DNA from: Argopecten irradians
Taxonomy: Eukaryota; Mollusca; Bivalvia; Pectinida; Pectinidae
DNA: 64,000 nucleotides
Direction of reading: 5' to 3'
Assembly (NCBI RefSeq): GCF_041381155.1
Contig: NC_091135.1
Coordinates: 124,001-188,000 of the forward strand
Position numbers and translations under genes: made by a program. The notes beneath the pieces were generated by a model. The model did no database searches. It was not told the DNA's origin and worked only from the letters and a program-made list of their open reading frames with translations. Shown in pieces: positions 18,820-58,807 of this stretch (position 1 is the stretch's first letter; every line of letters begins with the position of its first letter).

Positions 18820-20525
18820 ATGGCAGAAACAAGTAGGATAAGAGACATCAATCGCGAAATGAATCCAAGGAAAAAGAGGCCAAGTGATAATCCGCAAGAT
18901 CAGCACGAACGAAATAAGAAAAGAAAAGAACAACACTCCACTAAAGTACGAACCAGATTTGAGTTTATGTGTAAAGATGAAGCAGAAAAGTGCCATATTT
19001 TTAACAAAATGGATTCTATCAAAATGAAGTTGGGAGAAGGAAAAATATCTAATATTGGAACAAAGGATCTTTTGAACTCTGTTTTTGATTTTTACATAGA
19101 ACACAACCTGACGTCAAAGAAAACAAGAGATCATTCATGTTCAACGTCAGCAGCATCATCTCATGAAATCCCGTCATCCTATCAATATATAGAAATGGAA
19201 AATGCTTTTAACGAAAGCTTATTTGTTGCAACACCTTTGGCTATCACTAATCTTCTGCAACAAATCCAGAACCATCAGAAAAAATGTTCCTGTGAAATGA
19301 AGGTAGCTTCTGAAGAAAAGTTTAGACATGTAAGCAAGTTTCTGATCAAATGCAGTGAAGGCCATACCTTGACATGGTATTCATCACCACATGTGGAAGG
19401 AGGAAAGCTCTTCGGTAACCTGAAGTTAGCCCATGGCTATTTCTCATCTGGCATTCTACCAATTCAGTTTGAGAAATTTTACAAAGGAGCTAACCTTGGA
19501 ACAATGGGAGAAAAATATCTGGCCGATTTACAGGAAAACTATGCACCAATTGTACAAGACGCCCTCCTTGAAGAAATAGCATTTTCTGTTGCATCCGAAA
19601 TGGAAGATGGTATAAGTATCATGACAGATGCTAGGCACTGCTGGCGAAGAAATTCAAAATTCACTGATGTTGTTTGCTTAGGAGATTTGACACACAAGGT
19701 CCTGAAAATTGAAACTGTCAGCAAAAAAAGATGATTCTTCTAGTCAGAGACATGAACTCATTGGTGTCCGAAGAATTTATGATTATTTAGATGGAGAACA
19801 GGTTCCTGTAAAATACCATGCTCATGATAATAATGCTTCCATCATCAAATATGTTAGAGAGGAGAGAGGAGATACACAGAACTGCAATGACACATGGCAC
19901 ATGACAAAAAGTATTGGGAAAGCCGCGAAAAAGATCACTCAAGGGACAAAAAAGAATCACGGAAAAACCTGGCACAGTGAACTCTCTGACAAAGCTGCAT
20001 CTATTCGGACCCATATATATTGGTGTATACAAAATTGCAACAGAAATGCTGACATACTACGACAAAACATATCTAACATATCTGAACACTACAAAGGAAA
20101 TCACAAATTATGTCACTCTACATCACGATGCAGATCAGATCCAGAATATGAAAGCACAAAAACACCATCAGGACTCCAGAGGCTGAACAAATGTTGAAAG
20201 ATTTCCTTTTGAAATTACAAGTTTACAGAAATGCTCAGGATTACTGTTATTGCAAAGACACACACTACGTCGAATCATTCAACAACTCTCTCCTCCAATA
20301 CCATGACAAGAGAATAGTATTTAATGAATGTTCATACAAAATGAGAATCAACCTTTCAATTTTAGACTGGAATGAACATGTGGATAGGCCAATAACATCC
20401 AGACAAACAGTATTTGAGGACATAAAATCACGACAAAAGTTGGGATCTTCAGTGCACAAAAGAAAGACATACAATTTTCGTGAATATATCTGGGTTCTGT
20501 GGATGGAGCATATGTATACCAACTA
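18820..20525 (+). pseudogene. DDE-type DNA transposase-like gene with two frameshifts
   Basis: The first frame (MAETSRIRDINREMNPRKKR) gives a basic Lys/Arg-rich front followed by a Cys/His region (KCSCEM ... CSEGHTLTWY) and ISIMTDARHCWRRN, probably the first catalytic Asp. A seven-A run at 19723-19729 shifts the frame. The next part has SQRHELIGVRRIYDYLDG, HAHDNNASIIKY (probable second Asp), CNDTWHMTKSIG and GKTWHSELSDKAASI. A second shift near 20,168 leads to THYVESFNNSLL (probable catalytic Glu) and LDWNEHVDR. These blocks resemble a family of DDE transposase-like proteins scattered in molluscs, cnidarians and fish; I cannot assign the superfamily, but it may be near Kolobok. No terminal repeats were found. 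With two shifts it cannot make a full protein. Confidence 0.65.
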
Positions 20526-34265: not shown

Positions 34266-34349
34266 TGGACGGGCTTGTAATTTTCAAACATCATTCATTC
34301 AGGATACATCGTAGGGAGCTTATCGGCATATTTTGTTATTGTAGAAACT

Positions 34350-37300
34350 ATGGAGAAAAGGAAAGCTATGGATCACGATAATATTCAGGCTAAGAAGGGG
34401 AAATGGAGAAATGACAAGTACCGCAAGCATTTGGAAAGTCACATGTCAAACCAAATAGGCGGGCAGGACAACAAGGAGAACAACACACCTTTAGTCCCCG
34501 AGGCTGCTGTAAAGCAAGCTGATGATAGCCAACAGAATGATGCATGCTCCGAAGAAGCGCTCGGGGGAACCTTTAAAGTAGTAGCCATTCCTGCCGAGAG
34601 TCAAGCTAAATTAGACACAACTACTTTTATACAACAACAATACGACCCCATTAAGAAGATAATAGAGCAAGCTGTTGTCGGTGGAGGTGTCAAGTGGTAC
34701 TTATCTATACAAGTCCAGCTGTCAAAACCGAAAGGAGAAACAGTGGAGCGCGTCACACCACATTTCCGTGGAAAGTGTCAAATAACTTTAAATCCATTAG
34801 ATATAGATGAAGGTATGAAGGAATCTGTCCGAAAGATGCAAAGTTCCTTCATCGAATACCAACGTCAGGGAAGTAATTGGACATTGGACAAGGTGATTCA
34901 AATTCAGATACACTTTGCCCGCTATAAACCTCTTAAAGGCTCTAGCTACATCCCTCTACCGATCAAGCTGAGATCAAAGCATGCCATCATCAACGTTCAA
35001 AACAAAGACAAGAAATGTTTCATGTGGTCAGTGCTTGCTGCATTACACCCGGCCAAGAGAAATTCCCAGCGAGTCAGTAAATACAGTATCCATCAGAATG
35101 AACTCGATTTCACAGGCATAACTTTTCCCGTCAAAGTAGCCGACATCAGCAAGTTTGAAACACTGAACAAAATCAGCATCAGCGTATTAGGATACGAAAA
35201 AATAGAAATTTCCCGATCCACGTGACAAAGCAAAGGTTTGAGAGACACGTCGATTTATTGTTGATATCAGATGGACGAAAGTCACATTTTTGTTGGATTA
35301 AAGATCTGAATCGTCTGTTAAACAATCAAAAGAGTGACAGTCACCGTCACTTTTTCTGTATCTACTGTTTGCAAGGATTTACAAAACAAAGAATTTTAGA
35401 AGATCACATATCCTACTGTCGAGAGCATGGCACTCAAAAAATAAAACTACCAACAGAAGAGGACAAGTGGCTGTTCTATAAGGATGTGAGAAAGCAGCTT
35501 AAGGTACCTTACATTATATATGCAGATTTCGAGTCATTCCAGGTGCCCATAAAGAGATGTGATGTCGACCCAGACAAATCACACACGGAGAAAACCACAC
35601 ATCATGTACCATCCAGCTTCGCCTATAAAGTCGTAGGGCTCATACAAGAAACATCAAAGGAACCCGTGGTCTACAGAGGAACAGATGTCACGGAAAGGTT
35701 TGTTGAGTGCATGCTAAAAGAACAGGAAGAAATAGAGCAAAGGTTCAAACACGTCGAGCCAATGGATATGACGGGGACTGACTGGCAAGCCTTCGATGAA
35801 GCAACTAACTGTCACATTTGCGGAAAAGTGTTAGGTGAGGACAGAGTAAGGGACCATTGTCACGTGACCGGTAAATTTAGGGGAGCTGCTCACAACGAGT
35901 GCAACATCAACTTTAAGTTCACGGGACGCATTCCGGTTGTATTTCACAATTTACGCGGTTACGATTCCCATCTAATCATGCAGGCCATTGGAAAGGTGTG
36001 TGATAAAGAGATCAAATGTATACCCAACAATATGGAGAAATACATTTCGTTCTCCATGGGCTGTATGGACTTCATAGACAGTTTTCAGTTTATGGGGACA
36101 TCACTGGAAAAACTCATCGTGAATTTATCCGCAGACGGTAAAGAAAAGTTTGAACACATGACACAGCATTTTGGTGAAGAGGATATAGAACTTCTCCTAC
36201 AAAAACAGGTGTATCCCTATGACTATTTCGATGGTCCGCATAGGTTTCAGGAAGCCAGTCTACCTCCAAAAGAAGCATTCCGGAGCAGTCTGACTGGAGA
36301 AGACATATCTGATGAAAAGTATGAACACGCTCTCCGAGTATGGGAAACATTTAGAATAAACAATCTTGGAGAATACACGGATCTCTACGTGCTAACTGAT
36401 GTGCTCGGGCTCGCCGATGTGTTTGAGAACTTTAGGAATCTATGTCTGGAGTCATACGGGCTCGATGCAGCTCACTTTTACACCGCCCCTGGGTTAGCGT
36501 GGCAAGCAGCATTGAAAATGACGGGAGTTCAATTAGAGCTACTCACAGACATCGATCAACATCTGTTTATCGAAAAAGGCTTGCGAGGGGGTATATCCAT
36601 GATCAGTCATCGGTTTGCAGAGGCAAACAACCCATACGTACCAGGTTATGATCCATTGAAACCAAAAGAATACATCACCTACTTAGATGCAAACAATTTG
36701 TATGGATGGGCCATGTCTCAATCCCTACCCACTCATGACTTTTTCTGGCTGAGTGATACCGACAAAGACAAGCTTGATGTCACGGCAGTTCCGGATGACG
36801 CAAGTGAGGGATACATATTAGAAGTAAATCTCGAGTAATCAACAGATCTCCATGATATACACAATGAATACCCCTTGGCTCCTGAACGAATAACTGTAGG
36901 AAAGGATGATTTGTCAAACTACAGTAAAACATTATGGCGGGATCTAGGAGACTGTGGAAATCAGCATGACTGCTTAGATCATTATCATTCATCCGAAAAA
37001 CTCATACCAAATCTCAAAAACAAGGAGAAGTATGTCATACATTATCGAAATCTAAAGCAATATCTTTCTCTTGGCATGAAGCTTACAAATGTTCACAGAA
37101 TATTAGCGTTCAAACAGTCGCATTGGCTGAAGCCTTATATTGATTACAACACCCAAAATAGGAAGACTCGCGAAACAGCTTCGAGAAAGATTTCTATAAG
37201 CTGATGAATAATAGCGTTTTTGGGAAGACTATGGAAAATTTAAGGAAGAGAATGGATGTCAAACTCGTCAACAGCGAGAAGAAGGCCATGAAATTAACAT

Positions 37301-38011
37301 GTAAACCAACTTTCCACGAGTTTAGGATCTTTTCGGAGGATTTGGTTGGTGTCCACATGCTAAAATCAAAACTATATCTGAACCGACCTATATACGTGGG
37401 ATTCAGTATTCTCGATGTCTCTAAAACATTTGATGTATGACTTTCATTATAATTATATGAAACGAAAATATGGATGCAATGCACGTCTCCTCTTTACTGA
37501 TACCGACAGTTTGGCATACGTCATCAGGACAGAGGACATTTATCAAGATATGTCGGAAGACAAACATTTGTTTGACACCTCAGAATATTGCACATCGCAT
37601 CCTCTCTACAGCACGGAAAATAAAAAGGTATTAGGGAAAATGAAGGACGAAACCTTTGGGAACCCGATTCACGCTTTTGTTGGATTAAAAGCGAAAATGT
37701 ATGCCTACACTTACAATTGTAAAAAAGAAAAAGATGGGAAAATGTTAGAAACAAACGTAGAATCGAAAAAAGCGAAAGGCATAAAAAAATATGTCATCGA
37801 AAACCATACCCGTTTCGAGCACTACAAAGAAAGCCTTCTGCAAAAGAAAATCATAATGTCAAAAATGAACCAGATCAGAAGTTACAAACATCAACTTTTT
37901 AATGTATCTCTAACCAAAAGAGGCCTTTCGCCATTCGACGACAAACGATATTTGCTTGCCGATGGCATCACTAGTTATGCATACGGGCATTGGAGAATAT
38001 CAGGAGAGTAA
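34350..38011 (+). pseudogene. Polinton protein-primed DNA polymerase B region (fossil)
   Basis: Family B DNA polymerase of the protein-primed type, which replicates the element. Recognisable blocks in order: a Polinton-type front region (SSYIPLPIKL, KKCFMWSVLAALHPAKR), a Cys/His finger (FCIYCLQGF), exonuclease I (YIIYADFESF), a Zn-binding insert (CHICGK ... DHCHVTGKFRGAAH), exonuclease II (FHNLRGYDSH), polymerase motif A (YLDANNLYGWAMSQ), motif B region (MNNSVFGKTMEN) and motif C (LFTDTDSLAYV). The region is broken in about three places. It is the first gene of the element, behind its own TATA promoter, and is followed by a structured 3' element. Confidence 0.9.
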
Positions 38012-38230
38012 ACTACCCAAGAAAGGTCTAATGTCAAGACATAGTGTGATGGGAAATGGTGTACATATACACAGATTATTCGAGTACCATCATTCGGGTG
38101 GTAGATGACTCTCGACTATTTGTAAATATACATTGTCCATTATAGATTGTTGTACAGATGGACACAAGATGGGTCCCTGACTTGTGTTCCGTCTCATTAA
38201 CAGGGACTATAAATATTAAATATTATTATA
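38003..38230 (+). ncRNA. Structured 3' element, copy A (after polB)
   Basis: An RNA-like element overlapping the end of the polB region. Outer helix: GAGAGT 38004-38009 with ACTCTC 38108-38113, and CTACC 38013-38017 with GGTAG 38100-38104. Inner hairpin: GTCT/AGAC around the loop AATGTCA (38026-38040). Distal hairpin: GGACACAAG with CTTGTGTTCC near 38,159-38,192. A paralogue sits after the integrase at 41105 with compensating changes. It may act in 3'-end formation or stability of element transcripts; function unknown. Confidence 0.5.
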
Positions 38231-38270
38231 ATTGGTCGAGTTATTTTTACCCACAATGCAATTGACACGG

Positions 38271-38280
38271 TATATATATA
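38271..38280 (+). promoter_or_regulatory. TATA box of the Polinton ATPase gene
   Basis: TATATATATA 58 bp before the ATPase ATG, with ATTGG (inverted CCAAT) about 40 bp further upstream. This matches the two other promoters of the element. Confidence 0.5.
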
Positions 38281-38337
38281 GGGACAAACTGTAAAACTCT
38301 CATTTAGTAATCTGGACGCCGACGAGAACACATCGAT

Positions 38338-38435
38338 ATGAAGCACCAGTGTGAAATTTGCTTTAGTGAATATATCTGGCCACATGATTTAAAACGTCAC
38401 ATAAAACATAAACATATGGAAGGAGAGAACAATAC

Positions 38436-38517
<82 letters not shown>

Positions 38518-38526
38518 CAACAACAA

Positions 38527-38557
<31 letters not shown>

Positions 38558-38559
38558 AA

Positions 38560-38598
<39 letters not shown>

Positions 38599-39284
38599 CA
38601 AGAGTTTGTATTTAAACATCCATTTACCGCAACTGTTTCGGGACCGACCTCATGTGGGAAGACTTATTTTGTCAAAACACTGCTTCAATCTTGTATGACA
38701 AAACTATCACCACCTCCTCAGCGTATTTTATGGCTTTACAAACGGTGGCAGCCACTTTATGATGTCATCAAAGCAACGGTTTCACCAGCGGTAGAATTCA
38801 TCCAAGGGATTCCGTTGGATTTAGACCAGGATTCTTTCATTAGTCCAAACGTGAGAAACTTGGTGATCTTGGATGATCTCATGTCGACAGCAAGCAAAGA
38901 TCCTCGTATCAACGAATTATTTACGGAGGGGAGCCATCACAGAAATTTGTCCGTTTTGGCTATCAATCAAAACCTTTACTACAATAAAGACCCAACACAG
39001 AGGAGGAATTGTCACTACTTAGTGCTATTCAACAATCCTATCGACAAACAGCAGGTCATGACTCTTGCAAGACAGATGTACCCTGGGAATCATGAATATT
39101 TGATGAGACATTTCAGTGAGGCTACTGATAAGCCATATGGTTACCTACTCATCGATCTAAAACCATCAACACCCGAATCATCACGCATGCGCAATGACAT
39201 ATTTTCCGAGCGGTCTATAAAAGGACCAACAAAGCACATCAACGATCATTTTGAGACTGACACTCCGACCGTGCAGACGTATAC

Positions 39285-39316
<32 letters not shown>

Positions 39317-39939
39317 TATTACCAGATCAAGAAAATATGTCGGCCTGCGACGATTGTGGTATCATGTTTCAAGACGTTCACGATTTACAGAGACACGTAA
39401 AGAAATGGTGTCCAGAAAATGATTCCCGAAAAAGGAAGCTACCATCAAATGAAGAGAATGAACCAGTGGTCAAGAAATGGTTGTCTTTAGAGAGTTTAGA
39501 ATCACAAGACGAAGAAAATGAAAGTGAAGAACACGTGGTTTTTAATGCCATTATGACAAAAGCAAACTCTGTAAACGAAGAAGAATGGAATAAAAAGTAT
39601 GACAAATACGTAAATGAAGGCATGTCTGATGACGAAGCCAAAGCTAAAACAGAGGAAAAGATGAAAGTCAAAGATATGGATCAATTTATCAAAGATTATG
39701 GATCGATTATTATGTCCATTCTTAAGCTACAAAATGGTAAGATCCACGAAAAGGTCATGAACGATGTCACGGAGCTCATAGACGATGGTTATGACGATCG
39801 CAAGGCAATCAAGATGGCTCTTAAAAAGAACCGTCATGTCTTAGATGAGATGTGGGATGGTGAAGATAGTGATGGTGATGAAGATGAGGAGGAAGAAGAT
39901 AGCGATGATGATGAAGAATCTGAAAAGGATGAAAACTGA
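38338..39939 (+). CDS. Polinton packaging-type ATPase with zinc fingers (fossil)
   Basis: A 533-residue open frame. It has an N-terminal C2H2-like finger (CEICFSEYIWPHDLKRHIKH), a polyglutamine tract of about 60 residues encoded by mixed CAG/CAA, and an FtsK/HerA-type P-loop (SGPTSCGKTYFVKTLL) with a Walker-B-like LVILDDLMS. After a second short Gln run comes another C2H2-like finger (CDDCGIMFQDVHDLQRHVKK) and a very acidic tail rich in Asp/Glu. Such ATPases pump DNA into capsids in Polintons and related viruses. This frame looks whole, but the element as a whole is broken and lacks recognisable capsid genes. The Gln tract and the fused C-terminal finger/acidic tail are unusual. Confidence 0.85.
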
Positions 39940-39998
39940 TATAAATAGACTTTTTTCTTAATGACGTCATTATAAAGTTTAGTACTCGACGAAGAAGG

Positions 39999-41105
39999 AT
40001 GTCGTCTTGGGAAGACTATTTAAAAGACATTTACTTCAATCCCGCCAATGCAGGGAGTTTCTCTGGACCAGACAAGCTGTATCGATACGTGAAGAAAGCT
40101 GGGAAATACGTCATAAGTAAATATAAGATAAGAAAATGGTTACAACGTCAAGAACCCTACAGCCTGCAGAGAGCAATCCGACATCCATTCAAACGAAACA
40201 AAATTTTCGTAACTGGCATCGACGACCAGTGGTCTGCTGACCTCATGGACATGGTCAAATTTAAGAGTGAAAACGATGGTTACTCTTATATACTTGTCGT
40301 GATTGATGTGTTCTCAAAATACTTGTGGTTGAGGCCACTGAAAAACAAGAAGGGAACGTCTGTGTCAAAGGCACTGCAAGACATTCTCAGCGAAGGGAGA
40401 CAACCCAGTCGTATCCGTAGTGACAAGGGCCAAGAATTTAGATCCAAGGACGTTAACTCTCTACTAAATCGATATGGTATCACGCATCTATACGCACAAA
40501 ACGAAACCAAAGCTGCTGTAGCCGAGCGTGTCATCAAGACTATCAAAACAAGGTTGTATAGATATTTCACACACAATAGAAACTACGAGTACGTAAAGAA
40601 ACTACAGTCGCTGATAGCTACAATCAGACATATCACCGGACGATCGGTATGGCTCCGGCAAATGTAACCGAAAAAAAGGAAACTTCTATCTGGTGGAGGA
40701 TGTATTGGCCGAAAAAAACAACCTGTGTCGACAATAACGAAGAAGACTCGTAAACCGTTCAAATTCAAGGTTGGAGATAAAGTGAGATTGACTCATTTGA
40801 AGAATCCTTTCACAAGGGAATATGATCAAAGATGGACCGGAGAGATATTCTCCATTTCTCAAAAGGTACTTCGAGGAGGTCTACCTCTATATAGAGTCAA
40901 AGACTATGATGGGGACGAGATCAAAGGGACTTTCTACCAGTCTGAACTACAGAAAGTGGGAGTCAGGGACGACGACATGTGGAAAGTGGAAACCATTTTG
41001 AAGACAAAAGGAAAAGGTCAAAACAAACAATACTACGTGAAATGGCTTCACTGGCCTAAGAAATTCAATTCCTGGATATACGCGTCTGATTTAACCGATT
41101 TGTAG
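39999..41105 (+). pseudogene. Polinton integrase with chromodomain (fossil)
   Basis: Retroviral-type rve integrase: a Zn-binding-like front, WSADLMDMVKF (first catalytic Asp), YSYILVVIDVFSKYLWLRPL, RIRSDKGQEFRS (second Asp) and ETKAAVAERVIKTIKTR (Glu). It is followed by an SH3-like part and a C-terminal chromodomain (WKVETILKTKGKG, YYVKWLHWPKKFNSWI). It would insert the element and may target chromatin marks through the chromodomain, as in chromovirus integrases (inference). The region has about one break. It lies just before the right terminal repeat, a common Polinton position. Confidence 0.88.
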
Positions 41106-41648: not shown

Positions 41649-43960
41649 AGATAAGATAAGATAAGTTTATTTCTGGTTCAGGACTTATATGTAAAGTCCT
41701 CTATACCAGACTCAGACAAAATATAGAGTTTACAGTTAATACATTTTTATCCGGTAATAATAATAAATTAATGATGTATAAAGGCTTTGTAGTTGTATAA
41801 GAGTTCTTGTTCTTTCCAATGTTTATCTAACGCATTTTTGAAGGAGTTTTATATTTGGCGCCATCACTACATTCTCTGGTAGATCGTTCCATATCTTAGT
41901 AGCTCTTAGTGAAAAAAAGTTTCTCCTAATCTCATAGTTTGATCTTGTATGGAATAGCTTCCTCCTATGCCCCCTGCTGCTCTCGCGGTCCGTTGCATCT
42001 TTCCATAAAGATAAAATGTTACAACATTCGGAGTCATATACTCCATCTAAAATTTTGAAGAGTTCTATCATGTCTCCTCGTATTCTTCTATATGCCAATG
42101 TTGGTAATTTCAGTTTCTCCAGCCTTTGACTGTATGCTAGATGTGACATTCCTGGTAGACATTTTGTCGCTCTTCTTTGGACACTTCCTATCATTTCTAT
42201 ATGCTTCTGTAGGTAAGGCGCCCATACGGGGCAAGCATAGTCCAAATGAGACCGAACTAAGCATTTATATAGCGGAATAAATGATTTGATGTCTAAAAAC
42301 TGAAAAGTTCTTCTCAAAAGTCCCAAACATGGAATTGGCCTCTTGTTTACTTTCTCTGATATATGGGTGTCGAAGCTTAACGTGGAATCTACAACTACTC
42401 CTATATCTTTTTCTTGGTCTATATGTTGCAGTGTTTTTCCATTGAGCTGGTATTGTATAATTTCCTCACGTTGGTTTCTTGTTCTCTGTTTGTGTATCCT
42501 CATGTGTTTGCATTTATCTGGGTGCATTTTTAGAAGCCACGTTTCACTCCATTTCGACATTGTATCTAAATCACTTTGCAGATCTAAAGCATCATCTTTG
42601 CCACGGATAGCCTTGAATATTTTAGTATCATCCGCAAATAAGTATACGTCTGACTGCACTATATCTGGAAGATCATTAACAAATATCACAAATAATAAGG
42701 GTCCAAGAACCGATCCTTGTGGAATTCCTGATGTTACACTTGACCATTCGGAATTTTTGCCATTCACTGTTACCATTTGATGTCTTCCTTTCAAAAAAGA
42801 TGAAATCCAAGTTTTCATCTGCTGGTTGAAATTATATGAGTTTAATTTATTCAGTAAACGGTTGTGCGGAACTGTATCAAAAGCTTTCTGATAATCCATG
42901 TATATACAATCGACTACGTCACCTTTATCTAAAGCAGTTGTCCATTTATCCAAAACTTCTAAAAGTTGTAATGTTGTTGATCTACCTGATAAGAAACCGT
43001 ATTGTTTGTTGGAGAAGTACTTGTTTTTCCTCATAAATGTTACTATATGATCCCTTATTAGAGTTTCTAGTGTTTTACAAACAACTGACGTGAGACTTAC
43101 AGGCCTATAGTTTCCCGGTTCACACTTATCTCCTTTTTTGAAAATGGCACACACTCGAGCCCTTTTCCAATCATCCGGGAGAGTTCCTGTTGAAATTGAT
43201 TGGTTGAATAACTTCGTTATTGGATCTGATATTGTACCAGAGGTGTTTTTCAGGAACATCGGGTGGACGATATTTCGCACCTCGGACTGCGAACATTTGG
43301 TTTTGATCAGATCCTCCATAGCTGTTATTCTTTTCTCATATTTTTCCATAATAGCCTGGCAACGTTCCTCGATCTTCAGATCTGTTGCTATGTTTTTCTG
43401 TACATTCTCTCTGCAAGACATGCAGAACCACATGTAATCAGAATCTTGGAGGATTCTATATTCATCTTCCGATTTCCCTAGACATCGTATACAATGACGC
43501 GATGTACAGCGTTCACATTCTAACATTTTGTCCTCTGGATCGGAAAATACATTATCGCAATCAATGCATTTCCATCCCAAATCCTCTTCATCACTGTTAT
43601 TCAGTAAATCATAGTTTGTTATGAAGTTTGAGCCAGTTGACATCTCTCTTTGGGATGTTTTCAACACATTTTTGGAGCCGGGAGGCCTTCCACGGGATTT
43701 TTTCTGTGCGTTGCTAAGGACGCCGCCATTGTTCTTTGAAGACTGTGTTGACATGGTTCGTATTTCAGTTGATTACATCGCCTCTCTACCCACTGATTGA
43801 TGTTTTTTGTAATGACTACCCTCAGGAAGTCTTAAATAGACTATCCGTCTTTGGGTAACTTTGGTCTCTTCGGATAACCGCGGTATTTTCACTTTACTGG
43901 ACCTCCGTGAATTGTTATTGTTTAACTAAGTCACGTGACCGTAATGACATTAATGTACAA
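41649..43960 (-). mobile_element. LINE (CR1/L2/jockey-like), internally deleted
   Basis: Runs right to left. The 3' end carries the tail CTTATCTTATCTTATC, a short tandem tail typical of CR1/L2-like LINEs. The body contains a single ORF (41823-43754) with PHD and reverse transcriptase. 43,755-43,960 is the likely 5' untranslated region; the 5' boundary is uncertain. The tail starts about 50 bp from the right end of the Polinton, so the two insertions sit side by side. Confidence 0.75.
41823..43754 (-). CDS. LINE ORF: AT-hook, PHD finger and reverse transcriptase fused
   Basis: A 643-codon ORF. Residues about 19-28 form an AT-hook (RGRPPGSKN) and 57-112 a PHD finger (CIDCDNVFSDPEDKMLEC, CTSRHCIRC, WFCMSC), followed by a short coiled-coil-like segment. 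From about residue 165 comes a non-LTR reverse transcriptase: FKKGDKCEPGNYRPVSLTSV, GIPQGSVLGPLLFVIFVNDL and FADDTKIF. The C-terminus has SHLDYACPVWAPY and FFSLRATKIWNDLPENVV. In CR1-like LINEs the PHD lies in ORF1 and ORF2 starts with an apurinic endonuclease. Here the endonuclease and the first RT block are missing, so ORF1 and ORF2 appear joined by an in-frame deletion. A frameshift near 41,850 cuts off the usual end; another frame continues NSFKNALDKHWKEQELLYNY. Confidence 0.85.
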   Translation of the reverse strand: MSTQSSKNNGGVLSNAQKKSRGRPPGSKNVLKTSQREMSTGSNFITNYDLLNNSDEEDLGWKCIDCDNVFSDPEDKMLECERCTSRHCIRCLGKSEDEYRILQDSDYMWFCMSCRENVQKNIATDLKIEERCQAIMEKYEKRITAMEDLIKTKCSQSEVRNIVHPMFLKNTSGTISDPITKLFNQSISTGTLPDDWKRARVCAIFKKGDKCEPGNYRPVSLTSVVCKTLETLIRDHIVTFMRKNKYFSNKQYGFLSGRSTTLQLLEVLDKWTTALDKGDVVDCIYMDYQKAFDTVPHNRLLNKLNSYNFNQQMKTWISSFLKGRHQMVTVNGKNSEWSSVTSGIPQGSVLGPLLFVIFVNDLPDIVQSDVYLFADDTKIFKAIRGKDDALDLQSDLDTMSKWSETWLLKMHPDKCKHMRIHKQRTRNQREEIIQYQLNGKTLQHIDQEKDIGVVVDSTLSFDTHISEKVNKRPIPCLGLLRRTFQFLDIKSFIPLYKCLVRSHLDYACPVWAPYLQKHIEMIGSVQRRATKCLPGMSHLAYSQRLEKLKLPTLAYRRIRGDMIELFKILDGVYDSECCNILSLWKDATDRESSRGHRRKLFHTRSNYEIRRNFFSLRATKIWNDLPENVVMAPNIKLLQKCVR

Positions 43961-52001: not shown

Positions 52002-55000
52002 ATGGAAGCACAAGAAGACGACATATTTGACGAAAATGCCACGGAGATCATGATAGGTTCTAGGGACTGGCAAAAAATGGAATCGAGTCTGACAAAGGTG
52101 AGAGTTTCAGAGGTCCTACATATAAAAATTCAGATGTATACATATTTTTTTTTTTATAAATGTACTGGTTAGTACATAACATATACATGTAGCTATATCT
52201 TGAACATTTATTTCAATGTCATCAATATAAACACTTGATGCCATTCCCCACTGACTAGAACGAATATACGTTACCCGGCCTACTATACCTTTCAGCTGGG
52301 TACAAATTGGTCCCTATGTGTCGTAGTGGAGCGCTGCCTCCGAAAATCAGTCGGGAACAGTTTTCCATACTTTTTTGCAGGCTTCCAATTATTTTATGCG
52401 TATACATGCATTTACATATTATTTTTGTCCAAAACAAACATAACTATCACTCTTTTTTTTATATCTACTGTTAATAAAAAATGATATTATGTATAACAAC
52501 ATGTCATTCAAAAAAATAAGAAAACGAGCCGGGTACCTATGCACTAACACTACATTGTACGTGTACTACAACGAATAATCATACCCTAGCCTGCCTCCAC
52601 TCCGGATCCGTGACGACAACCATCTGTCAGAAATTGTCCGTCTGTCGTTCAGAGCTACATCATCACTGCTTAAATGTATATGCAATTGTAACCCTGGTTA
52701 ATACTAGCCGCAATCAACCTCTCGGCTAGGTAGAACTTCTCTTTAGCGCGATCGGTTGAGCGTCAGACTAGTATCCCAAAGGTCCCGAGTTCGAATCCTG
52801 GCAGAGGAAGATTATGTTTGTATCAACTATCAAATCATGTGCTCTGTTACATTGGCGCCCATGTAGGGACTCGGGAAATACTCAGCCATGCCCAACAGGT
52901 ATCGCTGTTAAGCCCTGGAAACTCGAGAACGAGTTCTGTCCTTGAGGGGGAGTATGTAACCCTGGTGAATACTATAGCCGCAATATACCGTTCGGCTAGG
53001 GAGAACTTCTCTTTAGGTCGATCGCTTGAGCGTCAGACTAGTATCCCAAAGGTCCCGAGTACGAATCCTGGCAGAGGCAGTGATTATGTTTGTATCAAAT
53101 CATGTGCTCTGTTACACAATTACGGGTACATGTACATGCATGGGAGCCAGAGATACTCTGGCCCTGACACCAGACTTTGACTTTATGACACATAGATGTC
53201 TGGTGTAGGGCCAGAGCGCAGTGCTATTTCAAAAGGTGGAACTCGCCGACACCGTTTGGTATCGAGATGGTATTTGCCATCTCTGATTGAGACTGCGCTT
53301 ACAAAACATTACCACAGAGAAGCGTCACTTAACTTGGTCTTTTCAACAAATGAGTGATTTATCTACCCACAGCAATCCATATTATCATGCATTCACATTA
53401 TATTATGTCAATACAGTAGTTTTCTTTACGCAACATTAAATCTTCCTTCTCGTCGACGCCATTTTCTCATAGTATGCAAATCGCCTCTAATCTTGACGGA
53501 TTGCTATGTTTGGGTAGGTCAGTCTGAATTTGGAGATGACCTGGCCCGATACCTGTGAGTGGATGTACTTGCTGAATTATTTATCACACGATGTAATTAA
53601 GAAATTAATGCCTCACTTCCTAAACCTAGTTAGACACATTAGACACCTGCTTTTCATGTGAAGTAGACAACATTTTAACAGTTGATAGGCTAGGCTAGAC
53701 CATCTGGATGAGGTTTCAGAAATCAAAACAAGCATGGATAAAAATGATAAAACTTTCAGGACCAGCCTATTTTCGATTTAGACTTATTATCGAGATTTTA
53801 GGGTATATAGATAGAGCTACATTGTAAATGAATTTCTATGTGTGTTTTTGAGGTTGATATTTAAATAGCAATATTGTCAAACTCATTTTCTAGACAGATA
53901 AATATATAAATGTGAATATTTACTTTATGCTTCAATATATTTGACAAATGATTAAAATTATTATATACATGTACAAAAACCTGATATCATTTAAGCTTGG
54001 TTACCGAGAGGGAATAGCTGACGGCCAAGAGATCAATGTACAGGAGGGATTTAACCAAGGCTACAAAGCTGCAGCCTCACTTGCATTTAGCATAGCTGTC
54101 CTTCGTGGAGAAATAAGGTCAGTAATGTATTATGACATTATATATCGGTATATCTATGGTACAAATGTATAGTTAAAATGCTTACAGAGATGAGGTAAGA
54201 GCTAGTATAAAACACAATTATTATCCCCCACCAACGAAGTTGGCGGGGGATATACAAATGGGTTCCGTCCGTCCGTCCGTCCGTACGAATGGTTTCCGGA
54301 GCAGAACTCTAAAACCAGTAGAGATATTTCCACGAAACTTCATACACACATTGGTCTTATGGTCAAGTAGTGCCTTTTGCTATTTTTAGGTTTTCATTTG
54401 TTGCATTTTTTCCGTAACCATGGAAACATTGCTGAAAATATCATTTTTTTGTACCAGGTTCGTTTCCGGAGCATAACTCTAAAACCAGAAGGGATATTTC
54501 CACGAAACTTCATAGACACATTGGTCTTATGGTCTAGTAGTGCCTTTTGCTATTTTAAGGTTTTCACTTTTTGAACTTTTTTCTGTAACCATGGAAACAT
54601 TGCTGAAAATGGCAGATTTTTGTACCAGGTTCGTTTCCGGAGCATAACTCTAAAACCAGAAGAGATATTTCCATGAAGCTTCATAGACACATTATTCTTA
54701 TGGTCTAGTAGTGCCTTTTGCTATTTTAAGGTTTTCACTTTTTGTACTTTTTTTCTGTAACCATGGAAACATTGCTGAAAATGGCAGATTTTTGTTTAAG
54801 AATCGTTTCCGGAGCACAACTCTAAAACCAGCAGAGATATTTCCATGAAACTTCATAGACACATTGTTCTTATGGTCTAGTAGTGCCTTTTGCTATTTTT
54901 AGGTTTTCACTTTTTGTGCTTTTTTCTGTAACCATAGAAACATTGCTGAAAATATCATATTTTTGTAGCAGGTTCATTTCCGGAGCATAACTCTAAAACC

Positions 55001-56083
55001 AGCAGAGATATTTCCACTTCATAGACACATTCATTTTATGGTCTAGTAGTACCTTTTGCTATTTTTAGGTTTTCATTTTTTGCACTTTTTCCTGGGTTTT
55101 TTTTCATACACATAAGTCTCCACAATCAAACTTACTTCAGCTTTGATATCTCCATTGGCGGGGGATCTGAATGACTATGTCCTTGTATCATTATTGAATG
55201 TCAATACTATAATAGATTGATTTATTGTTATATTTCTCGGGCTATAACTCCAAAACTGTACAACTTAGCTTCATGGAACTGCACATATACCAGGCTTAAT
55301 CATCCTACATGTAGGAGTGTCTTTTGCAAAATATAATGTACTATAAAAAATTTGGCAATATTGGGGACCTCCCCTTTTTGATAAGTTCCTTTAAAACTAA
55401 AAAGCATATTAAAATCTTATCACTAGCACAGTTAAATAACCATGTGTAAATGATAGGCAACCATGAAATACATATAGATTTTACATTAAAATGTAAACTA
55501 CTGCAGGGTGCAGGGATGATTAAGCATGATTTACGGCACCTTATTCTGTATTCATTATAATTACTCATATGGTTATACCATTTACAATTTACAGAACGTC
55601 GTGTATAGTCAACTTAACAGATAGGAGATTCTTGGAGATAATCAGTAACTATAAGAATTAAATCTTGTGAGTAAAAGTGTTTCTTATATTTCCCTTTGCA
55701 GTGCTTTATTATCTGTGAAACACATACAGAAGACAGATATGAACAAATCTACAGAAGTTAATCTGGAGCAGCTTCTACAGGATGTCCGTGAGTTAGAGCA
55801 GAGCTGTATAAAAAAAACTTGTATGGAGGCAAAGACAGAACCTCTAAGGAAAAGCAAGCAGTGTTGTGTCAAAAGTGAGGTCTCCGGGGTCACAGAGGTC
55901 AGCGATTATTCAAACCAATGTAAAGGCAGTTCTGACCAATTAGGATGTTGTCAAAGCCTTGATGTTCTGGAAAGGGCAGCGAAAACAGACATGGATGGGC
56001 AAATCCCTAATGTATCAGTAGATACAAGGAGTATATTAGGAAAATTAAGAAGACGTCTGGAAGATATTATGATAAAAAATTGA
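52002..56083 (+). CDS. YAE1: YAE1 homologue, three exons, 199 aa
   Basis: Exons: 52002-52097 (donor GTGAGA), 53996-54117 (acceptor ATTTAAG, donor GTCAGT) and 55702-56083 (acceptor CCCTTTGCAG). The phases fit and give 199 residues. Exon 1 has the IFDENATEI...SRDWQKM front typical of YAE1. Exon 2 carries the deca-GX3 Yae1 domain (GYREGIADGQEINVQEGFNQ, then GYKAAASLAF), and exon 3 begins SALLS as in vertebrate YAE1. The C-terminal part is poorly conserved, Cys/Lys-rich, ending in KLRRRLEDIM. Yae1 with Lto1 links the cytosolic iron-sulphur assembly machinery to ABCE1 (Rli1), which recycles ribosomes. AATAAA follows the stop by five bases. Lto1 shares the deca-GX3 domain, but the front and the exon 3 junction favour YAE1. 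Confidence 0.88.
52687..53116 (+). mobile_element. Miniature LTR element (TRIM-like) in YAE1 intron 1
   Basis: Two direct LTRs, 52687-52851 and 52955-53116, both starting TGTAACCCTGGT and ending CTCTGTTACA; about nine in ten positions agree by eye, so it is not very young. The 103-bp interior starts TTGGCGCCCATGTAGGGAC, a primer-binding-site-like sequence, and ends CTTGAGGGGGAGTA, a polypurine tract abutting the second LTR. A 4-bp duplication CAAT flanks the element (52683-52686, 53117-53120). There is no coding capacity, as in terminal-repeat retrotransposons in miniature. A fossil dependent on other LTR elements. Confidence 0.8.
52736..52810 (+). other. tRNA-like sequence inside the left LTR
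   Basis: TTTAGCGCGATCGGTTGAGC (A-box-like, D-arm) and GAGTTCGAATCC (B box, T-arm), with CTCT/AGAG acceptor-like ends. The same segment lies in the right LTR (53006-53080). It looks like a pol III internal promoter embedded in an LTR. The anticodon arm does not pair well, so it is not called a working tRNA. Confidence 0.55.
53155..53216. repeat. Hairpin in YAE1 intron 1
   Basis: CTCTGGCCCTGACACCAGAC and its inverse GTCTGGTGTAGGGCCAGAG with one unpaired position. A second hairpin GAGATGGTATTTGCCATCTC follows near 53,264, and AGCGCAGT/ACTGCGCT brackets that stretch. Confidence 0.65.
54225..55166. mobile_element. Tandem-core repeat in YAE1 intron 2
   Basis: The left end is a hairpin CCCCCACCAACGAAGTTGGC then GGGGG, followed by a TCCGTCCG microsatellite. 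The core has five tandem units of about 173-178 bp, each with TTTCCGGAGCA, AACTCTAAAACCAG, ATTTCCACGAAACTTCATA and AACCATGGAAACATTGCTGA. The right end is TCTCCATTGGCGGGGGATCT. A hairpin end plus tandem cores resembles pearl/Helentron-associated elements. Confidence 0.7.
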
Positions 56084-57481: not shown

Positions 57482-58807
57482 AACAAGAGGCCCAAAGGGC
57501 CTTAACGGTCATCTGACTACCTTGGCAATAGTAAAATTAATTTTATATGGTGTCACTTTGTCAGGACCATGTCAGGATCATTTTCAATTTCTTTCAACAA
57601 ATTTTATTTCAAACAAGAGTCCAAAGGGCCTTAACATGTAGGTAATTAATTAGATATAGTGTCATGGTAGCATCTTCGATTTGGGATCAACCAGAAATGT
57701 AACAACACTTTGTCGGGACCATGTCAGAATCATTTCATGCAAGTTTCAGCCGAGTCGCACCGGTAGAACTTGAGAAATTCAAAATGTGTTTTCAAGATGG
57801 CGGCTGTGGTGGCCATCTTGGATTTCGGATCGATCTGAACAATAACAATACTTTGTCGGGACCATGTCAGGATCATTTCATGCAAGTTTCAGCCAAATCG
57901 CACCGGTAGAACTTGAGAAGAAGTTCAAAATGTGTTTTCAAGATGGCAGCTATGGCGGCCATCTTGGATTTTGGATCGACCCGAAAAATAACAACACTTT
58001 GTCAGGACCATGTCAGGATCATTTCATGCAAGTTTCAGCCTAATCACACCGGTAGAACTTGAGAAGAAGTTCAAAATGTATTTTCAAGACGGCGGCTGTG
58101 GTGGCCATCTTGGATTTCGGATTGACCCGAAAAATAACAACACTTTGTCGGGACCATGTCAGGATCATTTCATGCAAGTTTCAGCCAAATCGCACTGGTA
58201 GAACTTGAGAAGAAGTTCAAAATGTGTTTTCAAGATGGCGGCTTTGGCAGCCATCTTGGATTTCGGATCGACCCGAAAATAATAACAACACTTTGTCGGG
58301 ACCATGTCAGGATCATTTCATGCAAGTTTCAGCCAAATCGCACGGGTAGAACTTGAGAAAAAGTTCAAAATGTGTTTTCAAGATGGCGGCTTTGGTGGCC
58401 ATCATGGATTTCGGATCGACCCGAAAAATAACAACATTTTGTCGGGACCATGTCAGGATCATTTGATGCAAGTTTCAGCCTAATTGCACCGGTAGAACTT
58501 GAGATGAAGTTCAAAATGTACTTTCAAGATGGCGGCTGTGGCGGCCATCTTGGATTTCGTATCAACCCGAAAAATAACAACACTTTGTCGGGAACATGTC
58601 AGGATCATTTCATGCAAGTTTCAGCCAAATCGCACCGGTAGAACTTGAGAAGAAGTTCAAAATGTGATTTCAAGATGGCGGCTTTGGCGGCCAACTTGGA
58701 TTTCGGATCAACCCAAAAAATAACAACACTTTGTCGGGAACATGTCAGGATCATTTCATGCAAGTTTCAGCCAAATCGCACCGGTAGAACTTCGGGTCAG
58801 ATGACCT
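57482..58807. mobile_element. Pearl/Helentron-like repeat, member B, YY1-motif core
   Basis: Starts AACAAGAGGCCCAAAGGGCC then TTAACGGTCATCTGAC, and ends GGTCAGATGACCT (short inverted ends). The core is about seven tandem units of roughly 147 bp. Each has CATGTCAGGATCATTTCATG, AAATCGCACCGGTAGAACTT, and an inverted pair CAAGATGGCGGC / GCCATCTTGG. CAAGATGGCGGC matches the YY1 consensus. Each unit can be read for about 63 codons, but the copies are repeats, not genes. Confidence 0.8.

Follow-up and report, generated by a model that had tools for sequence, protein, structure and literature searches.

A probable Helenus-type miniature LTR element with tRNA-like segments in its LTRs in Argopecten irradians, and a candidate Gypsy helper in the same genome

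INTRODUCTION

A 430-bp element in the genome of the bivalve Argopecten irradians is very probably an old Helenus-type TRIM (proposed class TRIMp3), that is, a non-coding miniature LTR element with a tRNA-derived segment in its LTRs, which we set with Helenus by the features described below. It lies in a stretch of 64,000 nucleotides of contig NC_091135.1 (positions 124,001 to 188,000 of the forward strand), here termed the window; positions given without a contig name are those of the window. Helenus comprises tRNA-bearing TRIMs of fungi, six animal phyla and one plant (Kojima 2024, Biology 13:119; PMC10886601), and TRIMp3 is the name proposed there for TRIMs with a pol III promoter (PMC10886601). 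Animal Helenus elements have 4-bp target-site duplications (TSDs) and Gypsy-type primer sites, and tRNA-Lys is among the primers of the bivalve families (PMC10886601). Every Helenus feature that we tested was found here: LTRs, tRNA-like part, primer-binding site (PBS), polypurine tract (PPT), 4-bp TSD and a PBS shared with Gypsy.

The original prediction for this DNA had described a new type of pol III-driven LTR element, with the plant element Cassandra as its sole precedent. Neither part of that claim survives the publication of Helenus in 2024, which placed tRNA-bearing TRIMs, animal ones included, on record (PMC10886601). Because the class is already in print, the finding itself is confirmatory. 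What is new here is same-genome evidence on which larger retrotransposon may move Helenus. The genome offers a test of helper dependence, with young low-divergence copies, a candidate Gypsy family whose primer site is the same and whose LTR ends are unrelated, and one locus in which the two are joined at that site.

THE WINDOW ELEMENT

Table 1. Features of the miniature LTR element, in window positions
Feature	Position	Strand	Basis or description
Complete miniature LTR element	52687-53116	+	430 bp
Target-site duplication CAAT	left 52683..52686, right 53117..53120	.	exact 4-bp in strict fixed-end test
5' LTR	52687..52851	+	165 nt, TGTAACC...TGTTACA; LTR matches at 39 further fetched loci
tRNA-like segment, 5' LTR	52737..52809	+	cmscan/Rfam, 17.9 bits
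A box TAGCGCGATCGG	52744..52755	+	5' LTR, motif comparison
B box AGTTCGAATCC	52788..52798	+	5' LTR, motif comparison
Non-coding internal region	52852..52954	+	103 nt; primer site from second base
Primer-binding site	52853..52873	+	starts TGGCGCC; 21 nt exactly complementary to host tRNA-Lys(UUU) 3' end plus CCA
Polypurine tract GAGGGGGAG	52944..52952	+	just before 3' LTR
3' LTR	52955..53116	+	162 nt, TGTAACC...TGTTACA
tRNA-like segment, 3' LTR	53007..53079	+	placed by alignment to 5' LTR; both boxes mutated

That the element is a miniature derived from an LTR retrotransposon, as first proposed, is borne out: LTRs, PBS, PPT and the CAAT duplication are all present (Table 1). It is TRIM-like in its size and its two LTRs, and it encodes no mobilisation protein. 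The internal region ends on its 3' side in GAGGGGGAGTA. Within the window the LTRs match each other with E 1.7e-54; 147 of 158 aligned bases are equal, with 11 gap columns. The resulting K2P of 0.073, together with the mutation of both promoter boxes in the 3' LTR, marks this copy as old. Its LTR pair differs by 1 transition and 10 transversions; in other old copies the substitutions are balanced or transition-rich.

Elsewhere in the window, 34281-41105 holds matches to a type-B DNA polymerase, an integrase and a chromodomain, with a weak match to an adenovirus IVa2/poxvirus A32-like ATPase, and may be read as a Polinton/Maverick-like gene set. A reverse transcriptase ORF on the minus strand (41826-43772; RVT_1 match, E 1.1e-35) is probably of the non-LTR type. 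A Mutator-like transposase match (PF20700, E 8.5e-8) falls at 19706-20197, and tandem arrays occupy 54292-55094 (171-bp units) and 57671-58792 (146-bp units).

THE FAMILY IN THE GENOME

The genome searched amounts to 845,758,899 bases (846 Mb) in 1508 contigs. A genome-wide search for full copies, which had been proposed as a check on the original prediction, found them: with the whole element as query there were at least 45 matches including the window, at least 37 of them over query positions 1-430 (40 of 1107 candidates scored), and other copies have LTR, PBS and PPT in that same order. The 44 matches outside the window were fetched as 39 loci, making 40 copies with the window. Each of the 40 copies listed has a purine-rich stretch ahead of its 3' LTR, in some of them (e.g. 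L010) an imperfect one.

TSDs were scored with fixed TG...CA ends. Six of the 40 copies examined were left out, their ends not being intact by this motif; 27 of the other 34, the window copy included, have an exact 4-bp TSD, and no more than 4 do so in a control in which one side is moved by as much as 30 bases. Three pairs of loci (L011/L012, L019/L020 and L039/L047) share their flanks and are thus duplicated DNA rather than independent insertions. Among further copies an exact 4-bp TSD was present in 13 of the 22 scored; these 22 come from 37 loci, L137, L171 and L172 having been left out of 40. Solo LTRs also occur, and five of the seven scored have an exact TSD (nine loci examined).

In 6 of 38 scored LTR pairs there is no substitution over 160 bases, so the family has been active recently. 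Three LTRs around two internal regions identify L009, L024, L028 and L037 as tandem copies. The internal region alone, used as query, gave at least 42 genome matches (40 of 223 candidates scored), and 19 of 20 further loci of this kind adjoin family LTR sequence. The exception, L052, has a Helenus internal region behind a different, low-copy 5' flank. Traced as a lead towards a helper, this flank was found at two other, partial places, neither with such a PBS. A 27-nt exact pattern searched in viral contigs gave no match.

THE PRIMER SITE

Host tRNA-Lys(UUU) genes (L072, L090) end in ...GAGTCCCTACATGGGCG, and the reverse complement of this end with CCA added is the window sequence TGGCGCCCATGTAGGGACTCG over 21 nt. 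Scored over 18 positions, the PBS agrees completely with this tRNA in 33 of 40 copies and at 16 or more positions in 37 of 40, with L013 entered as a miss owing to a misplaced start of its internal region. A second host tRNA-Lys(UUU) type matches the window PBS at 17 of 18 positions, and tRNA-Lys(CUU) at 13 of 18.

The 21-mer is found 127 times without mismatch in the genome, and the reversed 21-mer, used as control, not once. Of the 127 places 100 were listed, 95 of them within fetched loci; those outside are C9:2243279, C11:29467380, C11:43054508, C12:34168074 and C13:756017. The 40 loci added for 21-mer places all carry family LTR or internal sequence. High-scoring tRNA genes stand in long tandem arrays on C608, C614, C672, C561 and C10, with a spacing of mostly ∼1.6 kb; in the two loci examined (L072 and L090) the arrayed genes are tRNA-Lys(UUU), with tRNA-Gln genes nearby.

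THE tRNA-LIKE SEGMENT

Both LTRs had been said to contain a tRNA-like segment with A and B boxes, and this stands on the alignment of the two LTRs, on the Rfam match in the 5' LTR and on relatives that score higher, the boxes of the 3' LTR being mutated. The suggested Rfam/Infernal scan of the LTR agreed in part: between 52640 and 53160 nothing but tRNA matches at E up to 10 (17.9 bits, E 0.55; 4227 families), and the score falls below the Rfam gathering score of 29 bits. ARAGORN at default settings and the Rfam cut-offs, applied to the window, did not call the segment. We take it as real because cleaner relatives score up to 28.6 bits at the same place in the LTR. The anticodon-loop position in the 5' LTR may be read from the alignment as CUAGUAU, with AGU (Thr) as anticodon.

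Relaxed ARAGORN at 80% does not discriminate, with 29 matches in the window and 564 in 20 random 64-kb sequences; at 85% the window segment is among four matches, the random control being at 80% only. On a simple A+B-box score, 5 of 2000 shuffles and 1 of 1596 window tiles attain the value of the 5' LTR, and 384 of 2000 shuffles that of the 3' LTR. In neither LTR does the RNA of the tRNA-like part fold better than shuffles. No match to 5S rRNA-derived sequence, the feature of Cassandra and Ajax, was found in 52640-53160 (Rfam, E up to 10).

Rfam was applied to 20 of the 39 loci. Twelve of them yield tRNA matches, 22 in total and every one at the corresponding position in the LTR, and the remaining eight give no tRNA match at the threshold used; the highest score among the 20 relatives is below the gathering score. 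Default ARAGORN makes no call in the 39 loci, and a genome search with a tRNA-Thr sequence as query returned no match and thus did not find a host tRNA as source of the promoter. The typical motifs of the young LTRs listed are A box TAGCTCGATCGG, anticodon loop CTAGTAA and B box GAGTTCGATCCC. All three are clean in most of these LTRs, which indicates that the source active in recent times had retained the segment.

TRANSCRIPTION AND ORIGIN OF THE SEGMENT

Judged by sequence, transcription of the Helenus copies by pol III is likely; the published account draws no conclusion on this for Helenus without experimental validation (PMC10886601). TTTT is absent from 33 of 40 elements, copies that share ancestry, compared with a TTTT-free background of 5.2% of 430-nt window stretches and 17.9% of element shuffles. 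Its absence from most copies would permit pol III read-through.

Alternatively, the LTRs would be driven by pol II, like those of LTR elements in general, and the tRNA-like part would be carried along by descent without acting as a promoter. ATTAAA occurs in 29 of 40 elements and AATAAA in 5 of 40, counted anywhere in the element, and one or the other lies near the LTR end in the printed tails of L016, L021, L028, L039 and L043; such signals would be usable by a pol II transcript and leave room for this explanation. The tRNA-like part, moreover, has no clear conservation advantage over the rest of the LTR in old copies: across nine of them its conservation is 0.868 in the 5' LTR (U3 0.877, tail 0.857) and 0.883 in the 3' LTR (U3 0.866, tail 0.735). 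Against pol II stand the presence of TATAAA in just 3 of 40 elements, the general lack of TTTT, and the clean boxes and anticodon loops of most young LTRs listed. On balance we think it unlikely, while giving it some weight, that the segment has no promoter role, and we prefer pol III.

Far less probable is the secondary insertion of a SINE into this single LTR element. An ancient entry of a SINE into a TRIM LTR has indeed been proposed for Helenus (PMC10886601), but the tRNA-like part sits at matching positions in the two LTRs, and the relatives have it there too. It is thus no later arrival present only here, the outcome that would have told against the original prediction, and a recent SINE insertion in the window copy is ruled out by the relatives. 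When the tRNA-like part alone was used as query, the best 40 of 945 candidates all fell within family LTRs, 22 in the window or loci in hand and 18 in 16 new regions, each of which shows at least 130 nt of the 160-165-nt LTR. Among these best matches, therefore, the part belongs to the LTR and is not a later insertion. Free-standing SINE copies of it were absent from the best 40 of 945, a sample that more distant SINEs would escape; the part may have an ancient SINE origin, from a source too distant for these matches.

The least probable explanation, that two tandem SINEs or a chance duplication mimic LTRs, has in its favour the tRNA-like parts at both ends, but is refuted by the TG...CA ends with an exact 4-bp TSD in 27 of 34 copies, by the 21-nt PBS match to a host tRNA together with the PPT, and by the solo LTRs with their own TSDs (five of seven).

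A CANDIDATE GYPSY HELPER

With any base but T after it, the 18-nt primer site is present at 38 places in the genome (control, 0). Five of these were read: two are Gypsy copies (L173, L175), one is a Gypsy leader behind a Helenus LTR (L169) and two are Helenus copies (L155, L174). Matches to the Gypsy LTR end coincide with 16 of the 38 places, L173 and L175 among them. At L173, on C1010, the 18-nt site stands behind a different LTR end, which contains AATAAA and in which no tRNA was matched. Downstream of this primer site, at a distance of 3.6 kb, an open stretch of 367 aa carries RT and RNaseH domains, probably of Ty3/Gypsy type (L176); a second Gypsy LTR end (L175), 8.25 kb beyond the first, differs at 1 of 230 bases.

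The Gypsy LTR/primer junction, used as query, found LTR ends that are mostly 95-100% identical over 70-93 nt (best 40 of 277), several of those listed lying in pairs ∼8.2 kb apart. Such near-identical, paired ends suggest that the Gypsy family was recently active. In the stretches and ends read, Gypsy and Helenus have no similarity beyond ∼20 nt at the primer site. A PBS common to a Gypsy element, as expected of Helenus, is thus found as the same 18 nt in an RT/RNaseH-bearing family, and this family, read from its LTR ends and the RT/RNaseH piece, is our best candidate for the helper.

One locus joins the two families. On the plus strand of L169 (C11:5642267-5645091), a Gypsy LTR (98.5%) is followed by a Helenus internal region, a Helenus LTR and the Gypsy primer site and leader (99.4%). 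The first three of these parts recur at the locus in inverted orientation (672 aligned bases, 99.1%), and the inverted copy stops within one base of the Helenus LTR end. Among 40 scored matches to the junction of Gypsy LTR and Helenus internal region, only the two arms of L169 carry through it. The joins at this locus fall in or beside sequence common to the two families. We read L169 as a probable case of Gypsy/Helenus mixing during or after reverse transcription; it could instead be the result of DNA recombination between inserted copies, after integration.

SATELLITES AND TANDEM ARRAYS

Two 56-bp satellite arrays derive, as read from their unit, from the Helenus LTR/primer-site junction: the unit consists of ∼12 nt of Helenus LTR end and the first 44 nt of the internal region. 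The arrays have 54.7 units in L137 (C2:72603703-72607095) and 44.8 units in L171 (C12:8859988-8862600), each running to the edge of the fetched stretch, and both abut a Helenus LTR. At L172 (C12:39367518-39369358) Helenus LTR-internal units stand in tandem at 255-bp spacing, with five exact primer sites.

A PROPOSED MECHANISM

Pol III would start near the tRNA-like part of the 5' LTR, giving a transcript that would run into the 3' LTR or the flank. On this transcript tRNA-Lys would serve as primer, and a Ty3/Gypsy element would provide, in trans, the enzymes for reverse transcription. After transfer of the first strand via the repeated LTR sequence, the PPT would prime the second strand, and the Gypsy integrase would insert the DNA. 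We hold in even balance the more specific proposal that Helenus is mobilised by the recently active Gypsy family via the shared 18-nt tRNA-Lys primer site. In this proposal the two would recombine where LTR and primer site meet, in the course of reverse transcription or later, and this would explain the C11 hybrid, the 56-bp satellites and the tandem arrays of Helenus.

COMPARISON WITH KNOWN SYSTEMS

Like the bivalve biv-TRIM, the present family is a miniature LTR element outside plants; for biv-TRIM no canonical PBS is described as identifiable (PMC6934838), whereas here the PBS matches a host tRNA exactly over 21 nt. The nemertean TRIM Ajax has a pol III-type promoter in its LTR and a similar length (421 and 434 bp), but its promoter is 5S-derived, its TSD is 5 bp and its primer is tRNA-Leu (PMC10886601). 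The plant TRIM Cassandra is likewise a miniature LTR element with a small-RNA pol III promoter in its LTRs, and it too forms tandem arrays (PMC10886601, PMC7215508); it carries 5S rRNA where the present element has a tRNA-like part (PMC10886601).

The closest likeness is to Helenus (PMC10886601), which shares the form of a short non-coding LTR element with a tRNA-like part bearing A and B boxes in both LTRs, a PBS and a PPT. The 4-bp TSD and Gypsy-type PBS are those of animal members, and the tRNA-Lys primer is that of some bivalve families (PMC10886601). The length of 430 bp falls within the published range of 311-1263 bp, the tandem copies have a counterpart in the tandem arrays of zebrafish LTR-11_DR, and the AGU (Thr) reading compares with seven bivalve families said to be able to encode tRNA-Thr (PMC10886601). 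The B boxes differ, with mostly AGTTC here and GGTTC in PMC10886601. The word 'satellite' is absent from the main text of that paper (PMC10886601). Beyond Helenus as published, the present genome offers a candidate helper, a locus where Gypsy and Helenus are joined, and a satellite built from the LTR/PBS junction.
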